Assembly (NCBI GenBank): GCA_022496185.1
Contig: WTXG01000063.1
Location: 1-64,000 of the forward strand
Reading direction: 5' to 3'
DNA: 64,000 bases
Source: Multifurca ochricompacta
Taxonomy: Eukaryota > Basidiomycota > Agaricomycetes > Russulales > Russulaceae
Below the pieces are notes generated by a model. It was not told where the DNA came from and made no database searches. It saw nothing but the letters and a program-made list of their open reading frames with translations. Below, piece by piece: positions 130 through 63,800 of this stretch (its first letter is position 1; every line of letters starts with the position of its first letter). The position numbers and the translations under genes were made by a program.

Positions 130-629
130 TGTTGAACACAGGAGATGTTCGGTGATGCTTCAGGCATCAGGTGATTAGATTAGCTACTTGTAGATTAGAT
201 TAGATACCGGAGTTTCGGACTTTTACATTATCATTATTACTTTCTTTCTCACATTCCGCAGTAGCTGACTGATACACCATGTAACATGTGATTTCTGTAG
301 TGGCCAATGGCCTTTAACCCTCATGTTTATTGTTTGGACTTTGTCCGGCACTTGTGGACTTATTCCCAGTGTGCACAGACCATCCCTTGGAGTATATAAG
401 GGTGTCTGTTTCGTCTTCTACACTTCAGAGTTCTTCTAACATCTGAAGTGTAAGTTCCTTTCATACTATCTACCTTACTATTAGACTGACGTTCTTTACA
501 TAGAACTTTCTTTGTCTAGGTCAGTAGTATAGTTAATAGAGTTCTTCTAACATCTGAAGTAACTTTCTTTGTCTAGCTTAACCCGCTAACACTCCACAGT
601 CAGTATGCTGCGCACATGCCTGTTTCACA
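130..629 (+). repeat. 5' LTR of copia A
   Basis: The LTR starts TGTTGAACAC and ends TTTCACA. A TATA box (tatataa, 393-399) lies 34 nt before the start of a duplicated unit (427-576). The inferred layout is U3 130-426, R from about 427, and U5 up to 629. The inverted repeat CACTTCAGA...TCTGAAGTG (421-450) spans the inferred transcription start and the splice donor. Confidence 0.93.
427..576 (+). promoter_or_regulatory. Unspliced plus spliced tandem unit in the A LTR
   Basis: Copy 1 is exon1 427-449, intron 450-503 (GTAAGT donor, CTGAC branch-like site at 485-489, ACATAG acceptor) and exon2 504-519. An 18-nt spacer (520-537) follows. Copy 2 is exon1 538-560 joined directly to exon2 561-576. 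Both exons are identical between the copies and the 54-nt intron is missing exactly at GT and AG; no other cut point reproduces copy 2. The same arrangement lies in the 3' LTR at 6925-7074. The function is unknown; see findings. Confidence 0.88.
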
Positions 630-641
630 GGTTATGGGCCC
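630..641 (+). promoter_or_regulatory. Primer-binding site of copia A
   Basis: GGTTATGGGCCC follows the LTR end directly. Its reverse complement, GGGCCCATAACC, has the CAT anticodon in the middle, as in the anticodon arm of initiator tRNA-Met. This is the half-tRNA priming known for Drosophila copia and yeast Ty5, rather than pairing to a tRNA 3' end. Confidence 0.8.
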
Positions 642-1565
642 TGAGCACACGTAACTGATCTGTTGTTTCTTTTTCTGATCAGTCCAACACTTTCTTCAAG
701 CTCACCAGCTTCAAGACTTTGTCATCCCAATCAGTCTTCTTTGTGAGCTTCGATTTTCTTTTCTCTTGCCCTTAACTGTCCACAAGGTGGTGCGCTTTAT
801 GTGCCCACCTTGATCTGTCTGGCTAGTCCCTCAGGGGATTCTTGCAAAAGGTGACGAGGGACCCTAAGCGGGTGAAACACCTTGAGTTCCTCATGTGCGC
901 TCTAAGTAAATAGTATTCATAGTTGTAGCTGGGTTTTCGTCCCATCCATAGTCTTAGTAGGCCCCTTGCCCAGAAGGCTTGGAGCTATAGGTTCAGTCAA
1001 TGCTTGGCTCGATCCGTAAGCCAGGTTTAGTGACCTGCTGGTAGAGTTTAGGGTCTAGAACAAGGCATGGGTAGTCACTCCCATGACGCTTGGGCTCGAT
1101 ACAAGTAGGCTTGAACTACTATAGTATTTACACAGTAGCTAGAGGGTTTTGTCTCTGGGCAGAAGTACCCGCTGCTTTTATTGGGGGTCCACCCCAACCA
1201 GAGGAAACCTAATAGTCTACTATAGTCATGGCCCCAATCATCTAGGGCTTAATCATGGACTCCACCACCAGCACTAGAGGAAGGGCTCTATACCCTTTGT
1301 CTCTAGTGGAACTTGCGGTTGGCTCCTCCATGACATGACTCCCCATCTATTTACACATAGTCCCCCTGATGTGGGCTTAGGACATGTTGTAGATGGCGCT
1401 AGACAGCTTACTATACTACTTAGAAGTCGCACATCAGAGGCAGGACTTTTTTAAGTTCTGAAGCATAGCGCCACAGAATGGACGGGCCCTCTTAAATGAG
1501 ACCTGGACAACTGGTTCTAACTGCTCCTTGGAACCAGGATCAAATCTTTTTTCAAATCATCTCAA
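642..1565 (+). other. Long untranslated leader of copia A
   Basis: No conserved reading frame lies between the primer-binding site and gag. The leader is nearly the same in D (from 21442) and G (from 47350), and recognisable in B. It holds at least two hairpins (ACTGATC/GATCAGT near 652-692, and 783-812) and is the likely place of packaging or dimerisation signals (inference). Confidence 0.6.
783..812 (+). ncRNA. Conserved leader hairpin (A type)
   Basis: Stem CAAGGTGG/CCACCTTG is followed by a one-base bulge, an inner stem GCGC/GTGC and a loop TTTAT. The same hairpin occurs in D (21580-21609) and G (47487-47516). B has different bases but the same fold (12674-12702, minus strand). This is an RNA element inside the genomic transcript, not a separate gene. 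Confidence 0.6.
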
Positions 1566-4500
1566 ATGTCTTCCATCGTCTTCCCCCCCACATTCAAATT
1601 TGACAAACTCGACGGCTCCAATTGGCAGCAGTGGTCGGTGTCTTTCACTGCCCTGCTGAGGATCAATGGGATGAAGAGGCACATCACGCATGATGCCCCT
1701 GAGTTCCTGAATGCTCCCAAGCCGGAGGATGGAGAGAAGGACGACGAGTATGCCAAGCGTTTTGCGCTTTGGTCTGAGCCTATGTACCAGGAATGGAATA
1801 GGGTGGAGGAAGTCCTCATGGGAGTTCTGGTGATGGTCACATCACCGGAAACATACTCCCAAATTGCCTCTGACAGAACTTACCCTTCTGTCAATGCCAA
1901 GTATGAGCGTTTGGAATCGCTCTATGGCTCAGTAGGTAGCATGGCCACCTACAACTTGTGGTGTTCTGTATCCTCCTTCCGCTTGGAAGAAGGAAAGCAA
2001 TTCAGACCCCAGTTGCAGCGTGTGTTGGATGTGAGGAGCACTCTTAAAGAGAATGGGATGGAGATCTCTGATCTCCAGATGAGCTTTATATTGCTCCAAT
2101 CCCTACCTCCATCCTACTCAGCCATTGCTGGCTCAATCCTGGCGTCAGGTCCTCCTGACCGCCTTTCCCCTCAGGACCTTGTACAAAGGTTCCTAAATGA
2201 GGAAAGCCGACTAGCCGGCCCCGCAGGAAGTGGTGTTGGGGCTGCCCTTAACAAGGCAGCCCATGTCAACAAAAACAAAAATAAAAAACAAGTATCTTTC
2301 ACACCACCTCCTGCAGGTGCATCATCGTCCAATGATGTCACCTGCTTCTATTGCCAGAAGCCGGGCCACAAGGCTAATGAATGTCGGCAAAGGAAACAGG
2401 ACAGAGCCAATGCTGATGCAGGCAAAAAGGGCAACAAGAGGAAGGGGCAAGGCCCCAGTGTACATAATAACTCCACACAAGTAGCTACCGTAGTTAATGG
2501 TAGTGGCAGAATACAGGAGGTGCATGAGACACCTCGTATTTCACTTTATATGATGACCGAACATACGCAAGAAGTCGATGATGGCAGCAATCCTTGGATG
2601 ATGGACAGTGGAGCCACCACTCATTTTACACCACACTTAAACGATTTTTCTGAGTATTACCCTCACAAGGGGCACTCGGTGACAATAGGTGATGGATCCG
2701 TAGTCCAAGTCGAAGGAACAGGCAAAGTCATACTCAAAACTCGAAATAATTATGAGTTAGAGTTAAATAATGTCTTCTACATGCCTGGCAGTGAAAGAAT
2801 ACTGTCGACAAGCTGCATCACAGACAAAGGCGGTTCAGTGGAGTTCTCTCCATCTGAGGTCAGAATAAAGTACAATAATACAATTATAGCGGAAGGTGTC
2901 AAGGCTATGGGACTCTATTGGGTCTTTGGGAAAACAATGCAGAATCTAAATACTGCTTCCCACAAATCTGCATCAACTAGCCTTGAAACCTGGCATTTGC
3001 GCATGGGTCATATGTCAAAAGAGGCCCTCAAAAGACATGCTCCTAAGGCTGTAAAAGGCCTTAGTATTGATAATAGCCAAGTGGAAGACAAGCCGTGTTA
3101 TGGCTGTGAAATGGGAAAATCACACCGTCTTCCATTCCCTCCCTCTCATAAAAGAGCTTCAGCACCCTTGGAAGTCATCCATAGTGACCTAGTTGGTCCT
3201 TTACAATGTACTTCAATTCAAGGGAACCTATACTTCGCCACTTTCATAGACGACTTTAGCAGGACAGCCCTAGTTGTTGCTATGAAAGCAAAAAGTGATT
3301 TTACCTCGACGTTCTGCAATGTTAAGGCATTCCTGGAAAATAAAACAGACAGGAAAATAAAGACCTTACATACAGACCGAGGTGGCGAATTTGTCAATAG
3401 GGAGCTGAAGTCTATACTTGAGCAGGCTGGCATAGAGCATAAATTGACAATGCCATATTCCCCACAACAGAACGGAAGGGCTGAAAGGTTCAACAGAACC
3501 ATTATGGAAAAGGCTACCAGTATGCTGCATCATGCTGGTCTTTCCCTTGGTTTCTGGGAATGTGCAGTGTGAACAGCCTGTCACATATACAATAGAACGC
3601 CTATCCGCTCTAACAAGTGGAGGACACCGCTTGAGCTTCTGGATGGGGACATTCCAGATGTCTCTTACTTTAAAATTTTTGGCTGCTTAGCCTATTACAC
3701 TGTCCCAGAGGATAAAAGATGTAAACTGGATCATAAAGCCAGGGAGACAGTCTTTGTCGGGTATGCACCCCACTCTAAGGGGTATCTTCTTTGGGATATG
3801 CATACTCGATCCTTCGTGTTGTCAAGAGATGTGACATTTGATGAAGGATCCTTCCCATCCAACCTGTTGAGACGGACCCAAAGCCACCGGATCAACCCGA
3901 GTGGCATTACCGCCATGCACGCTTGTGGCGTGCTTTGACTGATTGATAAAGGACAATCCACAAACGCTCTTTATTCTCTCTTGTGACTGTAGGACAATGG
4001 ACTTAGATAGTATTGTTCTACAAACTAGGATTACACTCTCTTTTAGTATTTAAGGACATCCCTTCGTGTAGTTGTCACTTCAGTTTTAACCAACTAAACT
4101 GAAGTGAGTATTACTTATCTTATCTCTTACCTTACTTAGTTAATGCGTTACATCACACAGTTATCGCTACTAAACTAGGTAAACATAATATTATTAGTTT
4201 TAACCAACTAAACTGAATTATCGCTACTAAACTAGGTAGCGCTTATCTAACTCGCTGCTGCTCAAATCGACACAACCTTGCTAAGGACAACAAGGGAAAG
4301 CAAAAGGAAAAAGTTACGCCTTTTGTACTAGAAGTTGAGAGGCCTGTCCAGCCTCAACCAGCAACAGCCACAGTTCCTCAGGCTCCTGAAGATAAGGACG
4401 CCGAGGTTGAGGAACAGGAGGAAGTGGAACCTCCTCAAGTAAATCCTGAGCCTACCACACCCGAAAATGAGCTTGACACACACGATCAAACTATCTATCA

Positions 4501-6340
4501 GACGCCACCGTCCCAGATAATGGAACCTTCTGAACTCCCCCAGAGAACCCGTGCCAAAAGACAATCTAAGAAGAATGTTGGCAAGATTTCCCAACCAGTT
4601 TTTACTAGGGAAAGTCCACGATCTCAACAACATGACAGGGCTGTGCAGGAAGATCTAGATCTTGATACTGCCCGTCCCAAACGTTCATGTCGCATGAACC
4701 CTCGTTTTTATAATGAGGATAATGCTGAGTTTGTGCAGGGTTCTTCCAGATTGGGACATATGGAATTGCTATATGCCGCAGGTGTCTCTTACAGAGATCC
4801 CCTGACTTTTCAGGAGGCAATGCAGTCTGACAATGCCAATGATTGGCTTGAGGCATGTAAATATGAAATTGACGCCTTAGATAAATTAAATGTGTGGTGC
4901 CTTGAAGATCTTCCAAAAGGAAGAAAGGCGGTAAAGTCAAAATGGGTTTTTAAGCTGAAACCAGATGGACGGTTTCGTGCTAGGCTCGTGGCAAAAGGGT
5001 TCACCCAAGTAGAAGGAGTGGACTTCGACGAAACATTCTCTCCAGTCGCCAGATTTGAATCACTTAGATTATTACTAGCGCTAGCTACGCTAGAGGATTG
5101 GGAAATCCACCAGATGGATGTCAAATCGGCATTCCTTCATGGCGATCTGGATGAAGAGATATATATGGAGCAACCAGTCGGTTTTGTCGTTGCTGGGAAA
5201 GAGTCCAAAGTTTGTAGGCTACAAAAAGCACTATATGGCCTCAAACAAGCATCCCGAGCATGGAATCTACAATTCCATGCAGTTCTTAATGAACTGGGCT
5301 TTACTTGGACGTACTCTGATGCAGGAGTATATGTGTTTCATCAAAAGGAGGGGGATGATTCACTCTATGTCATTCTTTATGTAGATGACATTACTATACT
5401 CGGATCCTCAAATGATAAGATAACGTGGCTGAAGTCATCTCTATCTAATCGATATGAAATGACTGACTTGGGAGAAATCCAGTCCTACCTTGGAGTTAAT
5501 ATCACCAGGGATCGTCCTAATAAGACGATGGAGATTGACCAAGCAGCCTACGTTTTATCTATTATTGAGAAATTTGGGATGAGGGATTCCAACCGAGTAT
5601 ATACTCCTCTTCCCTCTGGCGCTGATGTACATCTGGTCAAGTTTGATGGCCAGGCATCTACTTCTGAAATAAAGAAGTACCAACAGTTGATGGGGTCTCT
5701 GCTATGGGTGCAGATCGGAAGCAGACCTGACATCAGTTTTGCTGTGGCGCGCCTTAGTCAATATGCTTCCAATCCCTCTCAAGATCATATGCGACTTGCA
5801 AAATATGTCTTAAAGTATCTTAATAGTACAAAAGACTGCAAGTTGCAATATTCTGGAGGGAATGGGGAGAGTGGCCTTCATGGCTTTGCAGATTCCTCAT
5901 GGGGAGATCAAGAGGACTGCCACTCTACCTCAGGCTACGTGTTTTTCTTGGCAAATGGTGCCATTTCATGGTGTTCCAGAAAGCAGAAAACAGTAGCACA
6001 GTCCACCACTGAAGCTGAGTATATGAGCCTCTCTGAGGCTGCAAATCAGGCAGCGTGGTATAGGACTTTCATGGAGGAACTAGGGTATGAGGTATCCTCC
6101 CCTATACTACTCCACTGTGATAATAAGGGTGCCGTGGATTTGGCATTAAACCCAGTCACAGGAAGGCAGTCAAAGCATATACCTATCAAGTACCATGCCA
6201 TTAGGGGGTATATTGAATCGCACATAATTGAGTTAGTGCGTACCCCCACAGGTGAGATGCTGGCAGATGGCTTTACTAAGTCTCTACCAAGAGCATCGTT
6301 TGAAACCATGGTAAACGGACTTGGACTTATGCTGGAATGA
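1566..6340 (+). pseudogene. Copia A gag-pol polyprotein, one stop and one LTR insertion
   Basis: Without the insertion 3865-4277 the frame runs from ATG 1566 to TGA 6338 (about 1,450 codons). The order is: copia-type Gag with one zinc knuckle CFYCQKPGHKANEC (from residue 260); aspartic protease DSGATTHF (from residue 347); integrase with an H/H-C/C finger (WHLRMGH, CYGC) and D-D-E (HSDLVGP, HTDRGGEF, GRAERFNR); reverse transcriptase with YVDD; and RNase H (FADSSWGD, STTEAEYMS, HCDNKGA). The integrase-before-RT order defines copia. TGA at 3570 replaces a CGA codon kept in D and G. The solo LTR adds 413 nt and changes frame. No host gene is present. Confidence 0.93.
3865..4272 (+). repeat. Solo LTR M inside copia A
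   Basis: A 408-bp insertion begins TGTTGAGACGG and ends ATCGACA. It is flanked by a 5-bp duplication (caacc, 3860-3864 and 4273-4277) and removing it restores the pol frame. Its sequence is unlike the A LTR overall, but it has a TATA-like box (tatttaa, 4047-4053) and the same unspliced/spliced unit: exon1 4082-4103, intron 4104-4160 (GTGAGT...CACAG), exon2 4161-4178, spacer 4179-4195, fused copy 4196-4235. It belongs to a distant copia-like family not otherwise present here. Confidence 0.88.
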
Positions 6341-6626
6341 GAAGAGCTGGAATTTGGAGACTTTGAATACCAGTCTCACTTTCCCACCATGCCATATGAG
6401 CACGTTCTCGACCTTGAGAGTGACGCAAGTAGTGTGTACGAAGTAGATATGTCAAGTGTTCAGCTTGCATAAGCGAATCTACAACTCGTATGCAAAACTC
6501 ACAACCCGCACTTGAGAGTTAGAGAAGTTGGATCTCTGGCTGGCGATATGCTCATTCAATTGTGATGGCAGTGTGCTCATCCAACTCATTTCCCATCCAT
6601 GACCAGATGCCTTCAGCATGGAGGGA
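6341..6626 (+). other. 3' untranslated region and polypurine tract of A
   Basis: About 290 bp of non-coding sequence, conserved in D and I, end in the purine tract atggaggga (6618-6626), which primes plus-strand synthesis next to the 3' LTR. Confidence 0.75.
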
Positions 6627-7127
6627 TGTTGAACACAGGAGATGTTCGGTGATGCTTCAGGCATCAGGTGATTAGATTAGCTACTTTGTAGATTAGATTA
6701 GATACCGGAGTTTCGGACTTTTACATTATCATTATTACTTTCTTTCTCACATTCCGCAGTAGCTGACTGATACACCATGTAACATGTGATTTCTGTAGTG
6801 GCCAATGGCCTTTAACCCTCATGTTTATTGTTTGGACTTTGTCCGGCACTTGTGGACTTATTCCCAGTGTGCACAGACCATCCCTTGGAGTATATAAGGG
6901 TGTCTGTTTTGTCTTCTACACTTCAGAGTTCTTCTAACATCTGAAGTGTAAGTTCCTTTCATACTATCTACTTTACTATTAGACTGACGTTCTTTACATA
7001 GAACTTTCTTTGTCTAGGTCAGTAGTATAGTTAATAGAGTTCTTCTAACATCTGAAGTAACTTTCTTTGTCTAGCTTAACCCGCTAACACTCCACAGTCA
7101 GTATGCTGCGCACATGCCTGTTTCACA
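6627..7127 (+). repeat. 3' LTR of copia A
   Basis: 501 bp, nearly identical to 130-629, with the tandem unit at 6925-7074. It abuts the truncated LTR of B without a target duplication matching the left side. Confidence 0.93.
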
Positions 7128-12861: not shown

Positions 12862-13363
12862 TGTCAAACAATCATGCTGCTGGTTATACTGACTGTGGTT
12901 AGTAGCGGTTAGGCTAGAAAGACAAGTATACTTCAGAGGTTGAAGAAACTCTATACAACTATACTACTGACCTAGAAAGACAAGTATCTACAAGAGACGT
13001 TAGTCAAAGGAAAGTAAAGAGTATAGTAAGACTTACACTTCAGAGGTTGAAGAAACTCTGAAGTGGAAGAGACGAAACAGACACCCTTATATACCCATGA
13101 GGGCCAGGGGAAATGGTCTGTGTGCACTGGGAATAAGTCCACAAGTGCCGGACAATAAACAGAGAGGGATAAAGGCTATTGGCCAAAGAGATATCACATG
13201 CTTACTGCGCATTACTAAGTCCATCACTAATCAGCTGAGTAAGGTGAGAAAGAAATGTAATAAAGATAACATAAAAAGTCCAATACTCCGATATCTAATC
13301 TAATCTACAGCTGAAGCGAACTTTAGATGCCTGAAGCATCTCCAGACACGTCCTGTGTCAACA
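12862..13363 (-). repeat. 5' LTR of copia B with tandem unit
   Basis: 502 bp, TGTTGACACAGG...TTTGACA on the minus strand. The TATA box starts at 13093 (minus strand). Exon1 13059-13037, intron 13036-12988 (49 nt, GTAAGT, GACTAAC, TGTAG), exon2 12987-12972, spacer 12971-12953, then fused exon1 12952-12930 and exon2 12929-12914. The exons differ from those of A but are identical between the two copies here. Confidence 0.88.
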
Positions 13364-20925: not shown

Positions 20926-21429
20926 TGTTGAACACAGAAGATGTTCAGTGATGCTTCAGGCATCAGGTGATTAGATTAGCTACTTTGTAGATTAGATTAG
21001 ATACCGGAGTTTCGGACTTTTACATTATCTTTATTACTTTCTTTCTCACATTCCGCAGTAGCTGACTGATACACCATGTAGCATGTGATTTCTGTAGTGG
21101 CCAATGGCCTTTCTCCCTCATGTTTGTTGTTTGGACTTTGTCCGGCACTTGTGGACTTATTCCCAGTGCACAGACCATCCCTTGGAAGTGTATATAAGGG
21201 TGTCTGTTTCGTCTCTTACACTTCAGAGTTTCTTCTACCTCTGAAGTGTAAGTCCCTTCTCTTACTTACTATCATACCTTGAGACTAACGCTCTTAGTAG
21301 TAAACTTTTCTCTGTCTAGGTCAGTAGTATAGTATAATAGAGTTTCTTCTACCTCTGAAGTTAAACTTTTCTCTGTCTAGCCTTACACGCTAACTACAGT
21401 CAGTATGCTGCGCACATGCCTGTTCTACA
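20926..21429 (+). repeat. 5' LTR of copia D with tandem unit
   Basis: TATA box starts at 21191. Exon1 21225-21247, intron 21248-21300 (53 nt, GTAAGT...GACTAAC...AGTAG), exon2 21301-21319, spacer 21320-21338, fused exon1 21339-21361 and exon2 21362-21380. The two copies match exactly, although both exons differ from those in A. CACTTCAGAG/CTCTGAAGTG (from 21219) spans the start of the unit. Confidence 0.9.
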
Positions 21430-26998: not shown

Positions 26999-27502
26999 TG
27001 TTGAACACAGAAGATGTTCGGTGATGCTTCAGGCATCAGGTGATTAGATTAGCTACTTTGTAGATTAGATTAGATACCGGAGTTTCGGACTTTTACATTA
27101 TCTTTATTACTTTCTTTCTCACATTCCGCAGTAGCTGACTGATACACCATGTAGCATGTGATTTCTGTAGTGGCCAATGGCCTTTCTCCCTCATGTTTGT
27201 TGTTTGGACTTTGTCCGGCACTTGTGGACTTATTCCCAGTGCACAGACCATCCCTTGGAAGTGTATATAAGGGTGTCTGTTTCGTCTCTTACACTTCAGA
27301 GTTTCTTCTACCTCTGAAGTGTAAGTCCCTTCTCTTACTTACTATCATACCTTGAGACTAATGCTCTTAGTAGTAAACTTTTCTCTGTCTAGGTCAGTAG
27401 TATAGTATAATAGAGTTTCTTCTACCTCTGAAGTTAAACTTTTCTCTGTCTAGCCTTACATGCTAACTACAGTCAGTATGCTGCGCACATGCCTGTTCTA
27501 CA
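26999..27502 (+). repeat. 3' LTR of copia D
   Basis: 504 bp with the tandem unit at 27298-27453 (intron 27321-27373). It differs from the 5' LTR by a few transitions. Confidence 0.93.
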
Positions 27503-31712: not shown

Positions 31713-34700
31713 TTGGCTCAACCCCATTGGCCTGGGCACGAGCACTACATGTAACCTCTGTGTATACTAGTCGCTTCAAGTCTTTGAAAATACCAGTACA
31801 TTTCGAGACTACACAGAGGATGGCCGATCGTGACATCCTGGTTGACTCAGGAGCCACAGATAACTTTATTAGTCCACGGATGGCAAAGACCATGGGACTA
31901 GGGATGCTGGCACTCCCCCAGGAAAAGAATATCTGGAATATTGACGGGACTGCCAATCGAGCAGGAAAGATCACACATTACACCGATCTTAATGTCCAAG
32001 TAGGGGAGAGGACAAAAGTCATCCGCTTCCTAGTCACCAATCTAGGCGAAGAAGATTTGGTTTTGGGATATCCCTGGCTTGCTGCCTTTGAACCAAGGAT
32101 CAATTGGAGTGATGCGACTATGGATAAAGACTTCTATCCTGTCCTCATCACGTCAATAGGATATGACTACGCCATTCGACATTCAGCAGTACACAGGATG
32201 GAGGAAAAGAACGAAGACCCAGGTTATTGTTTCGCTACCAAGGCATCAGAACTCGCACAGAAGGCAGTGGAGGGACGTACAGAAAAGACATTTGAAGAGG
32301 TAGTGCCACGAGAATATCATCGACATTGGAAAGTCTTCTCTGAGGAGGAATCTCAACGTTTCCCGCCTGTACGACCATGGGATCACGCCATTGACTTCGT
32401 ACCTGACACCCCATTGGCGATTGACTGTAAAATCTATCCATTGTCACAGGCAGAACAAACGGCACTCACAGCATTCCTTGAGGAACATCTTGCAAAGGGG
32501 TACATTCGTCCATCGAAATCACCATACGCGTTGCCATTCTTCTTCATCAAGAAGAAAGACGGCAAACTTCGACCAGTTCAGGACTACCGACGGATAAACA
32601 CCTATACTGTAAAGAACGCCTACCCTTGCCACTCATCTCGGAACTCATTGACACTATGAGGGATAAATCCCTGTTCTCTAAAATGGACATCCGCTGGGTT
32701 ATAACAATATTCAGATTAAGGAAGGAGACCAGTGTAAAGCGGCTTTCAAAACCAATCAAGGGCTCTTTGAACCGAATGTTATGTTCTTCGGCCTCACCAA
32801 CTCACCCGCTACTTTCCAATCGATGATGAATCACATTTTCCGTGACCTCATCCTTACGGGCGAAGTAGTGGTTTATATGGATGATATACTGGTTGCCACA
32901 ACAAACGATCTGACCCACCATCGAGAACGAGTACATCAAGTGTTGGACATCCTGCATGAACATGACCTGTACCTTAAACCTGCCAAATGCTCATTCGAAC
33001 AGTCAAGTGTAGAATATCTAGGAGTCATCTTGGAGGGAGGACAGGTCCGGATGGACCCAGTAAAGGTACAAGGAATCTGGGAATGGCCAGTGCCCACATG
33101 TGTTAAGGACATGCGGTCCTTCATTGGGTTCTGCAATTTTTATCAACGATTCGTCCGGGGGTTCTCAGGGATCGCCCAACTGCTCAATGGACTACTGAAA
33201 AAAGAAGTCCCCTGGCATTGGACCAAAGAACAACAAAAGGCTTTTGAACAGATTCGTGACATCATTGCCGCAGAACCGGTCCTTCTACAACCGGATCTGC
33301 AGAGACCTTTTGAACTCAAAGTTGATGCATCTCACTTTGCGAATGGTGCCGTGCTAAATCAACGGGACACGGCGGGACTCCTTCACCCGGTCGCCTTTTA
33401 TTCGGAAATGTTTTCGCCAGCGGAACGGAATTATGACATTTGGGACAGAGAGCTATTGGCCATAGTAAAGGCATTGCGACACTGGCAACCATACCTAGCA
33501 GGAACCCCTCACAAAACCATCATTCATACCGATCACTCCAACTTGCTCTATTGGAAGGAACCCCATAAGATCAGCCGACGTGTCGCCCGTGAAGTTCTAG
33601 AGTTGGAAGAGTACAACTTTGTCCTGAAGCATATTGCAGGGAGCCGTAATGCACAAGCAGATGCCCTGTCACGACGGCCCGATCTGAATAATGGTGCAGA
33701 AGACAACAATGATGTTACAGTGCTCCCAGAAGAAGTTTTCGCAAGGATGGCCATCATCAGCCTTCACGACATGGATCTATGGGCCCAGGTGTCGCAAAAT
33801 ATGAATCAACGACTATGCGAAACATGGGCAGAAGCACATAACCTAAAGAAAATTGATGGCCTATGGTGGAAGGATGGGGATCGACTCGTTGTCACTGGTG
33901 GCGACAACATTAAGAGGGGGGTGATCCATTTTCACCATGACCTTCCCTCGGCGGGACACCCAGGCATCGCTAATACCTACGCTCTTGCCAAACAAGACTA
34001 CTGGTGGCCAAACATGAAGAAGGACGTAGAGGAATACGTGAAGGGATGCACAGATTGCCAGGCCAACAAAGTGAACACGCACCCACATCCACCGGCCCCA
34101 TTCCCAATTACACCAATGACCTCACAACCATTCCAGACTATCGCCATGGACTTCATCATCAAACTCCCCACTTCCAGAGGATTCGACTCAATCCTGACCA
34201 TCACTGACCACGACTATTCAAAAGCAGCGCTGTTCATACCCTGCAATGAGTCCATCACAGCAGAGGGGGTGGCCAAACTCTACCTAGATCATGTCTATAG
34301 ACACTACGGCCTCCCCGAGAAGATCATCTCAGACCGTGACCCACGTTTCACATCCACATTTGCTAGGGCACTTTGCAAAACACTGAACATTACCCAAAAC
34401 ATTTCAACGGCCTATCATCCACAAACAGATGGACAGTCAGAACGAACAAACCAGTGGCTTGAACAATATCTTCGGTTCTGGTGCAATGGACGACAGGACG
34501 ATTGGGCTGACTGGCTTGCAACAGCAGAATTCGCACACAACTCCTGGCCCAATGGTACCACAAAACACTCCCCATTCTCACTTATCATGGGATGGACGCC
34601 CCGAGCCACATGGACCGGAAAGCCGACGAATGTCCCTTCAGCCACACAGCGTATCAGCCAATGGGAAGAGATCCAGAAATCGGCCAATGAGAATCTGTTG

Positions 34701-35189
34701 AAGGCGCAAAGGACCCTGGCGGAAAGACCTTCAAGGTTCACACCTTATCAGACCAATGACCTGGTATGGTTGGAAGGAAAGAACATTCACACGTCACATC
34801 CCACGGCCAAATTAGCGCCCCGACGTCACGGACCCTTCAAGATAATGAGGAAGCTGTCGGATGTGTCATATGAACTCGAACTTCCTCCCACATGGTGCAT
34901 CCACCCAGTCTTCCATGCCAAGCTGTTAACACCTTACAAGGAAACACCCCTACACGGGGAGAACTTCCCAAGACCCCCACCTGACCTTATCGACGGAGAA
35001 GAGGAGTGGGAAGTAGAACACATTCTGGACTCGAAGCGACAAGGCCGAGGGCGCAAGCTGTATTACCTAGTCAAATGGAAAGGATTCCCAACCTCTGACA
35101 ATTCGTGGGAACCAGCCGGAGATATCTTTGCCCCAGTCCTTATTGCGGAGTTTCATACCCAGCATCCAGAAGCACCCAAAAACGGTTAA
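31709..35189 (+). pseudogene. Gypsy H pol, two single-base losses
   Basis: Protease DSGATDNF (D at 31844), RT (VVYMDDILVAT), RNase H (FELKVDASHFANGAV, DRELLAIVKAL, HTDHSNLLYW), integrase with HHCC finger (HFHHDLPSAGHPG, CTDCQ) and D-D-E (MDFIIKLP, SDRDPRFTS, QTDGQSERTNQ), then a chromodomain (EEWEVEHILDSKRQG...LVKWKGFPTSDNSWEP), ending TAA 35187. Near 32625 one C is missing from a C-run and near 32695 one G from a G-run; the remaining 802-residue frame from 32781 is intact. Chromodomains usually guide integration to heterochromatin (family knowledge). Confidence 0.92.
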
Positions 35190-42077: not shown

Positions 42078-43156
42078 TGTTATGTCTGGTGCGGGACATT
42101 CCACATGACTTGTGTGACAGCATATCATTCAGAATCGGATAAGAAACCAATGAGGCTTCTTGGAGTTATGAGGGACAAGTCAAAGTCAAAGGGGCTGTTC
42201 CCTAAGACAATGTTGAGCGGAGAAGTGTCGAAAACACTGAGATGTTCAAGTCAGAGGTTCAAAGGAGGATGTCTGGAAGACAAGCACCAATGTATTCAAT
42301 AAGTCAAGTCTGAGGTCTACAGTGTAGTTACAGCAGACTTATATATGTAATCTAGTGGGCATCTATAGATAAGGGTAACGGAGTCAGGTGGGCCTGAATA
42401 TACGGAAGTGGAGGGCATAAAGCCTAGCTTCTGATAGGGAACTAAGTAAGTGTCTGGTCATAAGATAAAGAGATAAGAAGATAAGTGTGATCATTGAGTC
42501 AATAAGTACAAAGCAAGTCATGGGGATGGGAGCAAGGCATGAGATGGGTCCCAGGATGTGTGAAACAGGCATGTGCGCAGCATACTGACTGTGGAGTGTT
42601 AGCGGGTTAAGCTAGACAAAGAAAGTTACTTCAGATGTTAGAAGAACTCTATTAACTATACTACTGACCTAGACAAAGAAAGTTCTATGTAAAGAACGTC
42701 AGTCTAATAGTAAAGTAGATAGTATGAAAGGAACTTACACTTCAGATGTTAGAAGAACTCTGAAGTGTAGAAGACGAAACAGACACCCTTATATACTCCA
42801 AGGGATGGTCTGTGCACACTGGGAATAAGTCCACAAGTGCCGGACAAAGTCCAAACAATAAACATGAGGGTTAAAGGCCATTGGCCACTACAGAAATCAC
42901 ATGTTACATGGTGTATCAGTCAGCTACTGCGGAATGTGAGAAAGAAAGTAATAATGATAATGTAAAAGTCCGAAACTCCGGTATCTAATCTAATCTACAA
43001 AGTAGCTAATCTAATCACCTGATGCCTGAAGCATCACCGAACATCTCCTGTGTTCAACAGGATGGAGATGTAATCAAGAAGTGTAGCGTAGGTGGTAAGG
43101 CAGGGTTATCATTGGGAAGAGTGAAGAAAATGGGGTTGCTCGCAGAGGTTGTAACA
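42078..43156 (-). repeat. 5' LTR of gypsy E, split by a solo LTR
   Basis: Blocks 42078-42558 and 43065-43156 together make about 573 bp, the length of the 3' LTR. The interruption at 42559-43059 has its own ggatg duplication. Confidence 0.9.
42559..43059 (-). repeat. Solo copia LTR (A type) in gypsy E LTR
   Basis: 501 bp, nearly identical to the A LTR, minus strand, flanked by ggatg (42554-42558, 43060-43064). Contains the tandem unit (exon1 42761-42739, end of copy 2 at 42612). It formed by LTR-LTR recombination of a recent A-type insertion. Confidence 0.93.
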
Positions 43157-43497
43157 CTGAAGGGATCAGAGCTGCTGACATTAATGAAGATTTTAGTCTG
43201 CCCAAGCATCCCCACCCAAATGACCTGATCAATGTCAACTTCAGCAATGAAGCTCCTGAGTTCCCATTCTTCCCGAACAACCCTGAATCTCAGTTTTACT
43301 TCCCACTTATGATCCTGACATCCAGAAACGATGGCACAACTGAGGTAGCCAAGTACATTTATTACACAAATGAAGGTATGGACATAGCCAGGTGTTTGGA
43401 AAGAGGAGGACCAGTTTATGGGGCTCCAGTATACTTGGAGGAGAAGAAGGTCAATCAACTCCATTATGTCTTGGGGCCGGAACATTTGCAACACCTA
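43157..43497 (+). pseudogene. Gypsy C ORF3, block 2
   Basis: In frame with block 1 after removing E: ...SNEAPEFPFFPNNPESQFYFPL...GGPVYGAPVYLEEKKVNQLHY, aligned to the conserved middle of H ORF3. It ends at the TA target of the Tc1 derivative. Confidence 0.82.
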
Positions 43498-43859
43498 CAG
43501 TGCCTCACAAAACTGAGTCAATGTTTTGCACTTTTGCACTGTTTGTTGAATATCACATCAGCCAAAACAAATATAAACAAAGTCTTGGTAGACCATAAAA
43601 GGTACAAGATAAGGGTTATGTAATGCAACAATAGTTATGTAATTCTGATCAAAACCTGTGGAGCTATGCCCATTTCAAATTGGGGACTCATTGACTCAGT
43701 TTTGTGAGGGGGTATCAGAAATATCAGAATCTGATGCTCCACCAAATGTACAGCAACCAATCCTTAATATATGGTTACCATAGTTATCTTAATATTGATG
43801 GGACCTGGAATAGAGCTAGTTAACCATGGTTTACATTCCCAGAATATTATAATTTCCCA

Positions 43860-44099
43860 ATGCACCCCACCTCCTCTGCTCAGAAAGAAAACATGCTCTC
43901 TCTGGCCTCTGAAGGTCATTCCACTCACACTATTGCCTCCAGACTCAGCCTCAGCCAGTCCACAGTCTCTAGGACACTTAGAACCCTCCTTCACAACCAT
44001 CAGTCACCTCATTTTGGTCATCTTTCCAAGCTCTCTGCTACCTCTGAACATGCTATCATGATACAAATCACCACAGGAAAGGTTGGCAATGCTGTCTAG
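43860..44099 (+). pseudogene. Tc1 transposase N-terminus, left arm
   Basis: The frame encodes a helix-turn-helix of the Tc1 DNA-binding type (LSLASEGHSTHTIASRLSLS, QSTVSRTLRTLL). An identical copy lies at 44757-44518 on the minus strand. The reading is cut by a TAG shortly after, and the catalytic half is absent from this arm. Confidence 0.75.
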
Positions 44100-44178
44100 G
44101 CCACAAAGCACATCAATTCCATCATCCCCAACCATGTCTCTTCACAAACTGTGCACTGGGTTCTTAAACAACATTCAT

Positions 44179-44757
44179 TCAAGGCTGTAACAAAGAAGAA
44201 AAGGCTGCTACTCTCTGCAGTACATTGCAAGAAGCACTTAGCCTTTGCTTTGAAGTACCAAAACTGGACTGTGGAGGACTGGCATCTGACCCAAACCTGT
44301 TGATTTTGGTCTCATCTGACCAAATCACCCTCTTCCAGTCCTCCACAGTCCAGTTTTGGTACTTCAAAGCAAAGGCTAAGTGCTTCTTGCAATGTACTGC
44401 AGAGAGTAGCAGCCTTTTCTTCTTTGTTACAGCCTTGAATGAATGTTGTTTAAGAACCCAGTGCACAGTTTGTGAAGAGACATGGTTGGGGATGATGGAA
44501 TTGATGTGCTTTGTGGCCTAGACAGCATTGCCAACCTTTCCTGTGGTGATTTGTATCATGATAGCATGTTCAGAGGTAGCAGAGAGCTTGGAAAGATGAC
44601 CAAAATGAGGTGACTGATGGTTGTGAAGGAGGGTTCTAAGTGTCCTAGAGACTGTGGACTGGCTGAGGCTGAGTCTGGAGGCAATAGTGTGAGTGGAATG
44701 ACCTTCAGAGGCCAGAGAGAGCATGTTTTCTTTCTGAGCAGAGGAGGTGGGGTGCAT
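44179..44757 (-). pseudogene. Tc1 transposase fragment, right arm and centre
   Basis: After the N-terminal piece 44757-44518, the minus-strand frame 44466-44179 reads KYQNWTVEDWKRVIWSDE, the first catalytic Asp region of Tc1 transposases, across the 52-bp centre. It then runs into the mirrored arm and becomes nonsense. Later D and D/E blocks are absent. Confidence 0.75.
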
Positions 44758-45119
44758 TGGGAAATTATAATATTCTGGGAATGTAAACCATGGTTAACTA
44801 GCTCTATTCCAGGTCCCATCAATATTAAGATAACTATGGTAACCATATATTAAGGATTGGTTGCTGTACATTTGGTGGAGCATCAGATTCTGATATTTCT
44901 GATACCCCCTCACAAAACTGAGTCAATGAGTCCCCAATTTGAAATGGGCATAGCTCCACAGGTTTTGATCAGAATTACATAACTATTGTTGCATTACATA
45001 ACCCTTATCTTGTACCTTTTATGGTCTACCAAGACTTTGTTTATATTTGTTTTGGCTGATGTGATATTCAACAAACAGTGCAAAAGTGCAAAACATTGAC
45101 TCAGTTTTGTGAGGCACTG

Positions 45120-45336
45120 TATCAGCCAGTGACCCCTGCACCTTCGCTATCAATGAGATGCTCCGAGACTTGTGCATGCCACGACTGACTGCTGAGGTGG
45201 CACGATTGCACAAGTTCCAGGTGCTCAGAGACAACCTAGAAATGCAGCGCTGTGACTATGAAAGCAGATGGTGAGGATCAATTGGGGAGTCTTCGATATA
45301 GAGCAGCATTTGGTGGGCATTAGGACATGACTGGAG
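45120..45336 (+). pseudogene. Gypsy C ORF3, block 3
   Basis: CTFAINEMLRDLCMPRLTAEVARLH aligns to AIDEVMNDMRLPRLKAEVVRLR of H. After a frame break the coiled-coil part continues to the TRIM insertion (TSD tggag at 45332). Confidence 0.8.
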
Positions 45337-46949: not shown

Positions 46950-47337
46950 TGTTGAACACAGAAGATGTTCAGTGATGCTTCAGGCATCAGGTGATTAGAT
47001 TAGCTACTTTGTAGATTAGATTAGATACCGGAGTTTCGGACTTTTACATTATCATTATTACTTTCTTTCTCACATTCCGCAGTAGCTGACTGATACACCA
47101 TGTAGCATGTGATTTCTGTAGTGGCCAATGGCCTTTCTCCCTCATGTTTATTATTTGGACTCTGTCTGGCACTTGTGGACTTATTCCCAGTGCACAGACC
47201 ATCCCTTGGATAGTATATAAGGGTGTCTGTTTTGTCTCATACACTTCAGAGTTTTCTTCACCTCTGAAGTATAACTTGTTTCTAGCTTAACCTGCTAACA
47301 TCCACAGTCAGTATGCTGCGCACATGCCTGTTCTACA
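46950..47337 (+). repeat. 5' LTR of copia G, spliced single-unit form
   Basis: 388 bp instead of about 500. TATA box starts at 47214; 34 nt later a single exon1 (47248-47270) is joined directly to exon2 (47271-47285). The intron, spacer and second copy are absent, while the flanking U3 and U5 (CTGCTAAC...CCACAG) are retained. Confidence 0.9.
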
Positions 47338-63301: not shown

Positions 63302-63800
63302 TGTTGAACACAGAAGATGTTCGGTGATGCTTCAGGCATCAGGTGATTAGATTAGCTACCTTGTAGATTAGATTAGATACCGGAGTCTCAGACTTTTTAC
63401 ATTATCATTATTACTTTCTTTCTCACATTCCGCAGTAGCTGACTGATGCACCATGTAACATGTGATTTCTGTAGTAGCCAATGGCCTTAGTCCCTCATGT
63501 TTGTTGTTTGGACATTGTCCGGCACTTGTGGACTTATTCCCAGTGCACAGACCATCCCTTGGAAGAGTATATAAGGGTGTCTGTTTCGTCTCTTACACTT
63601 CAGAGTTTCTTCTATCTCTGAAGTGTAAGTCCCCTCTCTTACTTACTACCATACTTTGAGACTAACGCTCTACATAGCACTTGTCTTTGTCTAGGTCAGT
63701 AGTATAGTATAATAGAGTTTCTTCTATCTCTGAAGTCACTTGTCTTTGTCTAGCTGACTAACCTTACAGTCAGTATGCTGCGCCTCATGCCTGTTTCACA
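63302..63800 (+). repeat. 3' LTR of copia I with tandem unit
   Basis: 499 bp. TATA starts at 63568; exon1 63602-63624, intron 63625-63677 (53 nt, GTAAGT...GACTAAC...ACATAG), exon2 63678-63694, spacer 63695-63713, fused exon1 63714-63736 and exon2 63737-63753. Exon2 here (CACTTGTCTTTGTCTAG) differs from that of A and D, yet both copies agree. Confidence 0.9.

Follow-up and report, generated by a model that had tools for sequence, protein, structure and literature searches.

The window analysed here, a 64,000-nucleotide stretch of the genome of the basidiomycete Multifurca ochricompacta (contig WTXG01000063.1, positions 1 to 64,000), opens with a retrotransposon, element A, whose 5' long terminal repeat (LTR) occupies positions 130..629 of the plus strand and extends over 500 nt from TG to CA. 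The U3 region of this LTR has a TATA box (TATATAAG, 393..400, plus strand) followed by the sequence CACTTC (421..426), which is complementary to a GAAGTG located at the border between the first exon and its intron. The first exon, e1 (427..449), begins at the putative transcription start and is separated from the second exon, e2 (504..519, ending in TAG), by a 54-nt intron i (450..503) of the form GTAAGT...CTGAC...TAG. Downstream of a spacer s (520-537) that starts with GTCAGT lie e1' (538-560) and e2' (561-576, ending TTTGTCTAG), which together form an exact fused copy of e1 and e2 (538..576) and would serve as the 3' copy of the terminal repeat R. The spacer and the fused copy jointly make up a candidate second intron (520..576), and the LTR is completed by U5 (577..629). 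The base just before e1' (537) occupies the place of a substitution hot spot in close relatives and is the putative point of strand transfer. All of these features lie on the plus strand.

Scanning the window on both strands reveals eight exact units of this layout, composed of e1, a GT-AG intron i, e2, s and the fused e1'e2', which start at positions 427, 6925, 63602, 4082, 21225 and 27298 on the plus strand and at 42761 and 13059 on the minus strand. The layout count is zero in three windows shuffled in blocks of 100 bases, of which one strand was scanned. Element A carries the unit in its 3' LTR as well (6627-7127, unit 6925..7074, plus strand), and element D has it in both its 5' LTR (21225..21380, plus strand, 53-nt intron) and its 3' LTR (27298..27453, plus strand). 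The other units are located in the B LTR (12914..13059, minus strand, 49-nt intron), the I 3' LTR (63602..63753, plus strand), a minus-strand A-like solo LTR (42612..42761) and the plus-strand solo LTR M (3865-4272, unit 4082..4235), which divides into e1 (4082-4103), i (4104-4160), e2 (4161-4178), s (4179-4195) and e1'e2' (4196-4235). A further A-type LTR (46950..47337, plus strand) is devoid of both segments and reads U3-e1 (47248-47270)-e2 (47271-47285)-U5. The original prediction had named five of the eight units with the right coordinates and as exact copies, and had described the cut at GT and AG as free of ambiguity; the GT...AG cut is indeed unique in the units of the window. That the ends of these jumping genes hold an intron-split leader together with its spliced copy suggests that the splicing machinery builds the terminal repeat which the elements need.

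The A elements are Ty1/copia LTR retrotransposons, and M is a solo LTR of a second Ty1/copia family. The open reading frames of A match Retrotran_gag_2, gag_pre-integrs, rve and then RVT_2 (Pfam; RVT_2 E 8.4e-80). An M-family element ends in an RVT_2 protein (Pfam E 3.8e-55), the match by which M is placed in this class, and other M LTRs form pairs approximately 4.9 kb apart. M had been called unrelated-looking, and is the solo LTR of this second copia family. The LTRs have TG...CA ends, and target duplications of 5 bp flank D (AGGAG), the M solo LTR (CAACC) and the minus-strand solo LTR (CATCC). Element A (130-7127) has no matching target duplication (flanks ATAAC and GGAAT) although its LTRs are 99.4% identical to each other, and its flanks are therefore probably rearranged. 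The sequence GGTTATGGGCCCTG (630..643, plus strand), which directly follows the A LTR and is also present after the LTR at D, at the 46950 LTR and at several LTRs elsewhere in the genome, is taken by us to be the likely primer binding site, with a presumed match to an initiator tRNA half. The copia-type gag, an integrase preceding RVT_2, the TG...CA ends, the 5-bp duplications and a conserved motif after the LTR, where a primer site would be expected, are all shared with Ty1/copia elements (Pseudoviridae). Standard LTRs have a single R which is equal at both RNA ends without processing, whereas in the elements described here the 5' R would arise only after two splices.

A genome search for the same layout, as proposed along with the original prediction, found it widely in A-type and M-type samples. 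The exact A-type pattern of U3, e1 and 5' splice site is present at 1516 sites (772+744) and the exact M-type pattern at 392 sites (188+204) in the 53.8-Mb genome, with no matches for the reversed-pattern control of either search. When a single mismatch is allowed, the s motif has 1072 genome matches and none in the control. These site counts cover the search pattern only and count haplotypes and both LTRs of one element apart; the second copy was read in three samples. The first sample, the 30 places that head the list for the s motif, contains 29 full units, none of them with a mismatch, and in the remaining place (L024) the unit is cut by an insertion. A second sample consisted of those 40 of the 100 places listed for the U3-e1-5' splice site pattern that were absent from the s-motif list. 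It yielded 37 full units, 35 of which have 0 mismatches in the matched stretch, including one (L136) with a one-base indel further on in e2; the three places lacking a unit are L157 and L165, which are cut within intron i, and L164, which is without s-e1'-e2'. The M-type sample comprised 20 places chosen from 100 listed for their variety of e1, of which ten have the full unit (nine exactly) and six are truncated or decayed; in the other four (L169, L186, L188 and L182, the last of which breaks earlier) the copy is replaced by different sequence. By these samples, the full layout is present at most A sites and at half of the M sites. A first annotation gave 86 readings of 'no structure' which, among the matches listed, include the near-palindromic stem read on the opposite strand, LTRs without both segments and truncated copies.

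Intron i begins with GT in 104/104 distinct units and ends with AG in 100 of them. Inspection of the AG exceptions by eye indicates that the cuts in L152 and L155 are misplaced beside small indels, that a G next to the 3' site may be missing from L141 and that L167 has GG for AG. The branch motif YTRAY is found in all 72 distinct sequences of intron i, but YTNAY occurs in 87% of shuffles.

The fused copy closely tracks the exons of its own unit. The two copies agree without mismatch in 78/80 A units and 17/24 M units; the A units that are not exact are L152 and L155, and of the inexact M units six have a single differing base, while L032 was read in a wrong register (it is exact in another annotation). 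There are 44 different fused sequences among the 78 A units without mismatch, with an average distance of 6.4 edits. Across the 80 A units the mean edit is 0.05 within a unit versus 6.28 between units, the within-unit value leaning low because e2 was taken to be whichever stretch matched best, so that the one-base indel of L136 is hidden. In pairs of close A units (at most 6 edits in 200 nt of U3; pairs drawn from 50 units, inexact ones included) e1e2 differs in 50 of 69 cases, always in both copies and never in one only. As so many sequences exist while the copies agree within the unit, the second copy appears to be renewed from the first by way of spliced RNA. This concerted change is best accounted for if the second copy receives its sequence from spliced RNA, and the earlier reading of the second copy as a reverse-transcribed spliced RNA end is supported.

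Several kinds of discordance are seen in the M units. These are a C to T change at a CpG of e2 (L064, L065 and L068), an other-strand CpG change in e2' in one unit, one base in e2 (L015) and a T to A change in e1 that is seen twice (L053 and L055). The repeated e1 change was considered as a sign of inheritance against renewal and rejected, because L053 and L055 are 99.4% identical over 3.2 kb including their flanks and so represent one insertion on two haplotypes. L064, L065 and L068 have little in common beyond the LTR, and their C to T change is taken as a recurrent CpG change.

Splice borders are also present at the limits of a second segment. The e2|s border reads AG|GTNNGTAG in 80/80 A units and AG|GTA in 24/24 M units. 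In the 100 units whose borders are clean (misplaced borders led to the exclusion of one M and three A units, and the set was filtered for GT in A) the candidate intron s+e1'+e2' ends in YAG, has a length of 53-64 nt and starts with GTCAGT (52 units), GTGTGT (22), GTAAAC (22), GTATGT (2), GTTAGT (1) or GTAAAG (1). The commonest of these 5' sites, GTCAGT, is not a strong consensus. The branch motif YTNAY is not enriched in this second intron (39 of 63 distinct sequences versus 79% in shuffles), and branch-site enrichment was dropped as support for it. Removal of both introns leaves e1-e2-U5, which is letter for letter the e1'e2'U5 of the DNA, so that e1'e2' would be the 3' R and the spliced e1-e2 the 5' R. 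Ladders, in which e1 follows again after the fused copy, are found in 0/127 units; their absence and the AG|GT at e2|s are both explained by a second intron made of s+e1'+e2'.

Taken together, the sequences point to Ty1/copia LTR retrotransposons in which splicing quite probably completes the terminal repeat R. Transcription would begin at e1, about 34 nt past the TATA box; the distance from the start of the TATA box to the start of e1 is 34 nt in 76/80 A units and 35 nt in 22/24 M units. Two small back-to-back introns, i and then s+e1'+e2', would leave the 5' end of the RNA and give a leader of e1-e2-U5, both splices being deduced from the splice borders and from the existence of the fused copy. 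The 3' part of the RNA would run through U3, e1, i, e2 and s into e1'e2' with the introns retained. Intron i would be kept there because the U3 arm CACTTC hides its 5' splice site in a hairpin, and the second intron because an RNA that ended near e2' would offer it no exon further on. The same LTR could thus be spliced at the 5' end of the RNA and unspliced at the 3' end because the start site lies inside the hairpin arm. The minus-strand strong-stop cDNA of e1-e2-U5 would then anneal to e1'e2' and be extended through s, e2, i, e1 and U3, so that each new LTR would read U3-e1-i-e2-s-e1e2-U5, with its fused copy freshly written from the exons of the parent. Landing of the strong-stop cDNA on e1'e2' would rebuild the LTR without growing its length, and landing on e1 instead would produce U3-e1-e2-U5, a form which is also observed. 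We infer the RNA 3' end, the masking in the cell and the annealing to e1'e2', and the folding is computed. On balance, it is also likely that the 5' R is not encoded as such, that two spliceosomal splices assemble it, that the leader is rewritten in each round and that replication is gated by splicing.

Other explanations of the layout have to be measured against the same observations. Splicing of intron i alone, followed by end-to-end transfer that joins the spliced RNA end after the unspliced R, would account for the fused copy, for the hot spot at s/e1' and for the GT-AG cut of i, but the strong-stop product e1e2-s-e1'e2'-U5 would add one s-e1e2 unit per cycle, where ladders number 0/127. 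A-type LTRs without only i are likewise missing from the genome (0 by exact pattern) and the AG|GT at e2|s in 80/80 A units is left unexplained, which makes this account unlikely. The arrangement U3-R-R'spliced-U5 of the original prediction, which placed the second copy as an extra spliced R after the real R, is not supported, in view of the missing ladders and of the unexplained AG|GT at the 3' limits of the repeat. About as unlikely, or slightly more so, is a copy that was made once by splicing and reverse transcription and has since been kept alike, either through rare conversion or because selection favours a matching R. The boundaries are alike across the families examined, as would be expected of a single origin, but among the close pairs with near-identical U3 it is again both copies of e1e2 that differ (50/69), and M LTRs that are otherwise near-identical have different bases at the transfer point. 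Of the discordant units, L053 and L055 are one insertion on two haplotypes and the change in L064, L065 and L068 is taken as recurrent at a CpG.

An origin without any splicing, through deletion or as a functional tandem repeat that provides, for example, protein binding sites, explains the repeat itself and nothing beyond it. Such an origin is highly improbable in view of the GT-AG borders found in differing sequences across the A and M families, the concerted change of the copies and the 0 layouts in shuffled windows. Completion of R by two splices is the preferred reading of the layout and is followed below.

A strong-stop cDNA that ends at e1 and is transferred there should leave stray end bases as a mark on the base before e1'. 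Across an alignment of 30 M LTR places, to which some insertions contribute both of their LTRs and more than one haplotype, this base is T in 13, C in 13, A in two and G in two, and its diversity of 0.616 is the highest of 389 columns (the mean of the others is 0.019 and the next highest 0.358). The corresponding base in A is T in 64, C in nine, G in two and A in two. The base before e1 is C in 30/30 (M) and 77/77 (A), which is no independent contrast because this base is part of the search pattern. C before e1' may reflect a start one base upstream and not an untemplated base, and the A and G found there fit neither U3 nor the commonest spacer base. The hot spot places the putative strand-transfer point at the base before e1', the start of the second copy, and fits the strand transfer suggested in the original prediction.

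LTRs that are missing one or both segments have a bearing on where the cDNA lands. The pattern of U3 joined to fused e1e2 occurs at 30 places, all of which run straight into U5, as does the LTR at 46950 in the window. On a U3 tree of 108 LTRs, the bootstrap of which is not fully settled, the 31 LTRs without both segments require 22 changes, at least nine of them forced by well-supported branches, and shuffled labels need 27.2 changes on average. These U3-e1-e2-U5 LTRs would fit cDNA landing on e1; they were rejected as proof of double splicing because LTRs of this form would also result if the direct repeats e1 and e1' underwent deletion between them. Both members of one LTR pair, 6 kb apart, are intronless (L081 and L082). 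In a likely single element with the same U3, the 5' LTR is intronless and the 3' LTR is intron-bearing (L069 and L141), a mix which counts against the proposal in that it needs a later event. L164 has the structure U3-e1-i-e2-U5, without only s-e1'-e2', which fits either a transfer to e2 or a deletion between e2 and e2'. A search for further LTRs without only s-e1'-e2' gave 0 by a narrow pattern that misses L164 itself and is hence uninformative.

Folding predicts that the donor of intron i is accessible or masked depending on the presence of U3. Opening the nine donor bases of A takes on average 3.97 kcal/mol in RNA that begins at the e1 start versus 11.88 kcal/mol with U3; the value is higher with 60 nt of U3 in 63/63 contexts, and 0/1260 U3 shuffles reach the real value. 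For M the predicted values are 3.75 versus 14.35 kcal/mol with U3 (5/5 contexts; 0/100 shuffles) and, in nine more contexts, 2.2 versus 13.7 (1/180 shuffles), so that masking is predicted in 63/63 A and 14/14 M contexts. The U3 arm CACTTC is predicted to pair with GAAGTG and to hide the 5' splice site only if U3 is transcribed, in which case the 3' copy would keep intron i, as every full unit requires. In the s-motif sample CACTTC is exact in 29/29 units and GAAGTGTAAGT is present in 28/29; the presence of the stem is independent in this sample alone, because the search pattern of the other units (up to 3 substitutions) held both stem arms. The inner stem pairs differ between the families, AGAG/CTCT in A and AGTT/AACT in M, and both are paired. 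The A subtype to which the first LTR of the window belongs (e1 ending AACATCTGAAGT, 11 units) has a mismatch in the inner pairs.

Splice donors in or near R are familiar from retroviruses. The HTLV/BLV-type retroviruses resemble the present elements in having a splice donor in R; unlike the spliced RNA proposed here, their spliced RNAs are mRNAs and not a template that makes R. In a foamy virus study, which applied SHAPE to RNAs starting at +1 and -13, the donor is close to the start of R and four U1-binding bases are unpaired in the +1 RNA compared with two when upstream U3 is present, and donor masking controls polyadenylation (PMC3694450). The likeness lies in a donor that is open in the +1 RNA and less so with U3, here by folding prediction; the difference is that the part of the same report at hand describes no spliced copy written back into the LTR (PMC3694450). 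The foamy virus polymerase is furthermore of the RVT_1 type, whereas the A and M elements have RVT_2.

In the usual view, LTR elements have a ready-made R at both RNA ends, and splicing is a side path which must spare the genome copy. If the proposed cycle is true, splicing would instead be part of replication and only RNA processed by the spliceosome would have a matching R. The LTRs would then be a record of spliced 5' ends, start sites and strand-transfer points, and many hundreds of genomic copies would make readable steps that are usually studied in vitro. An answer is also suggested to an old problem, namely how LTRs that are identical can behave in different ways at the 5' and 3' ends of a single RNA. 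As for a benefit to the element, it may be speculated that the AU-rich s, perhaps with a polyadenylation signal, is cut from the 5' leader, and that passage through the spliceosome acts as a check. The original prediction knew of no described LTR of this type, and among the matches listed for the open PMC literature, as far as their text was accessible, no paper was found on an LTR intron with its spliced copy or on an R made by splicing. The accessible text of a survey of choanoflagellates describes no LTR intron (PMC6875170).

A number of minor observations concern individual copies. An M-type family, to which L169, L186, L188, L189, L190, L192 and the earlier-breaking L182 belong, keeps U3-e1-i-TAAATAG-GTAAAGATACTA and then has a common unrelated stretch of about 280 nt where the fused copy would be; the homology of L192 begins just before CACTTC. 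L024 and L157, at different places, are both cut at the TA of the intron 3' splice site by an insert with the ends CAGTGCCTCACAAAACTGAGTCAATG, which we presume to be Tc1/mariner-like. L149 (C7:26215-26815) and L148 (C7:20217-20817) are the LTRs of one element with the target duplication CAATT; their U3 is identical, the intron, e2, e2' and U5 differ, and e2 equals e2' in each, so that the element looks like a mosaic formed by recombination between subfamilies. Within the window, a Gypsy-type pol with a chromodomain (32781-35189; Pfam Chromo E 7.1e-14) lies among the copia elements. An inverted repeat (43496-44282 and 44335-45121) has arms of 787 nt which are 100% complementary and 52 nt apart, and may represent either a palindromic element of recent origin or a fold-back of the assembly.
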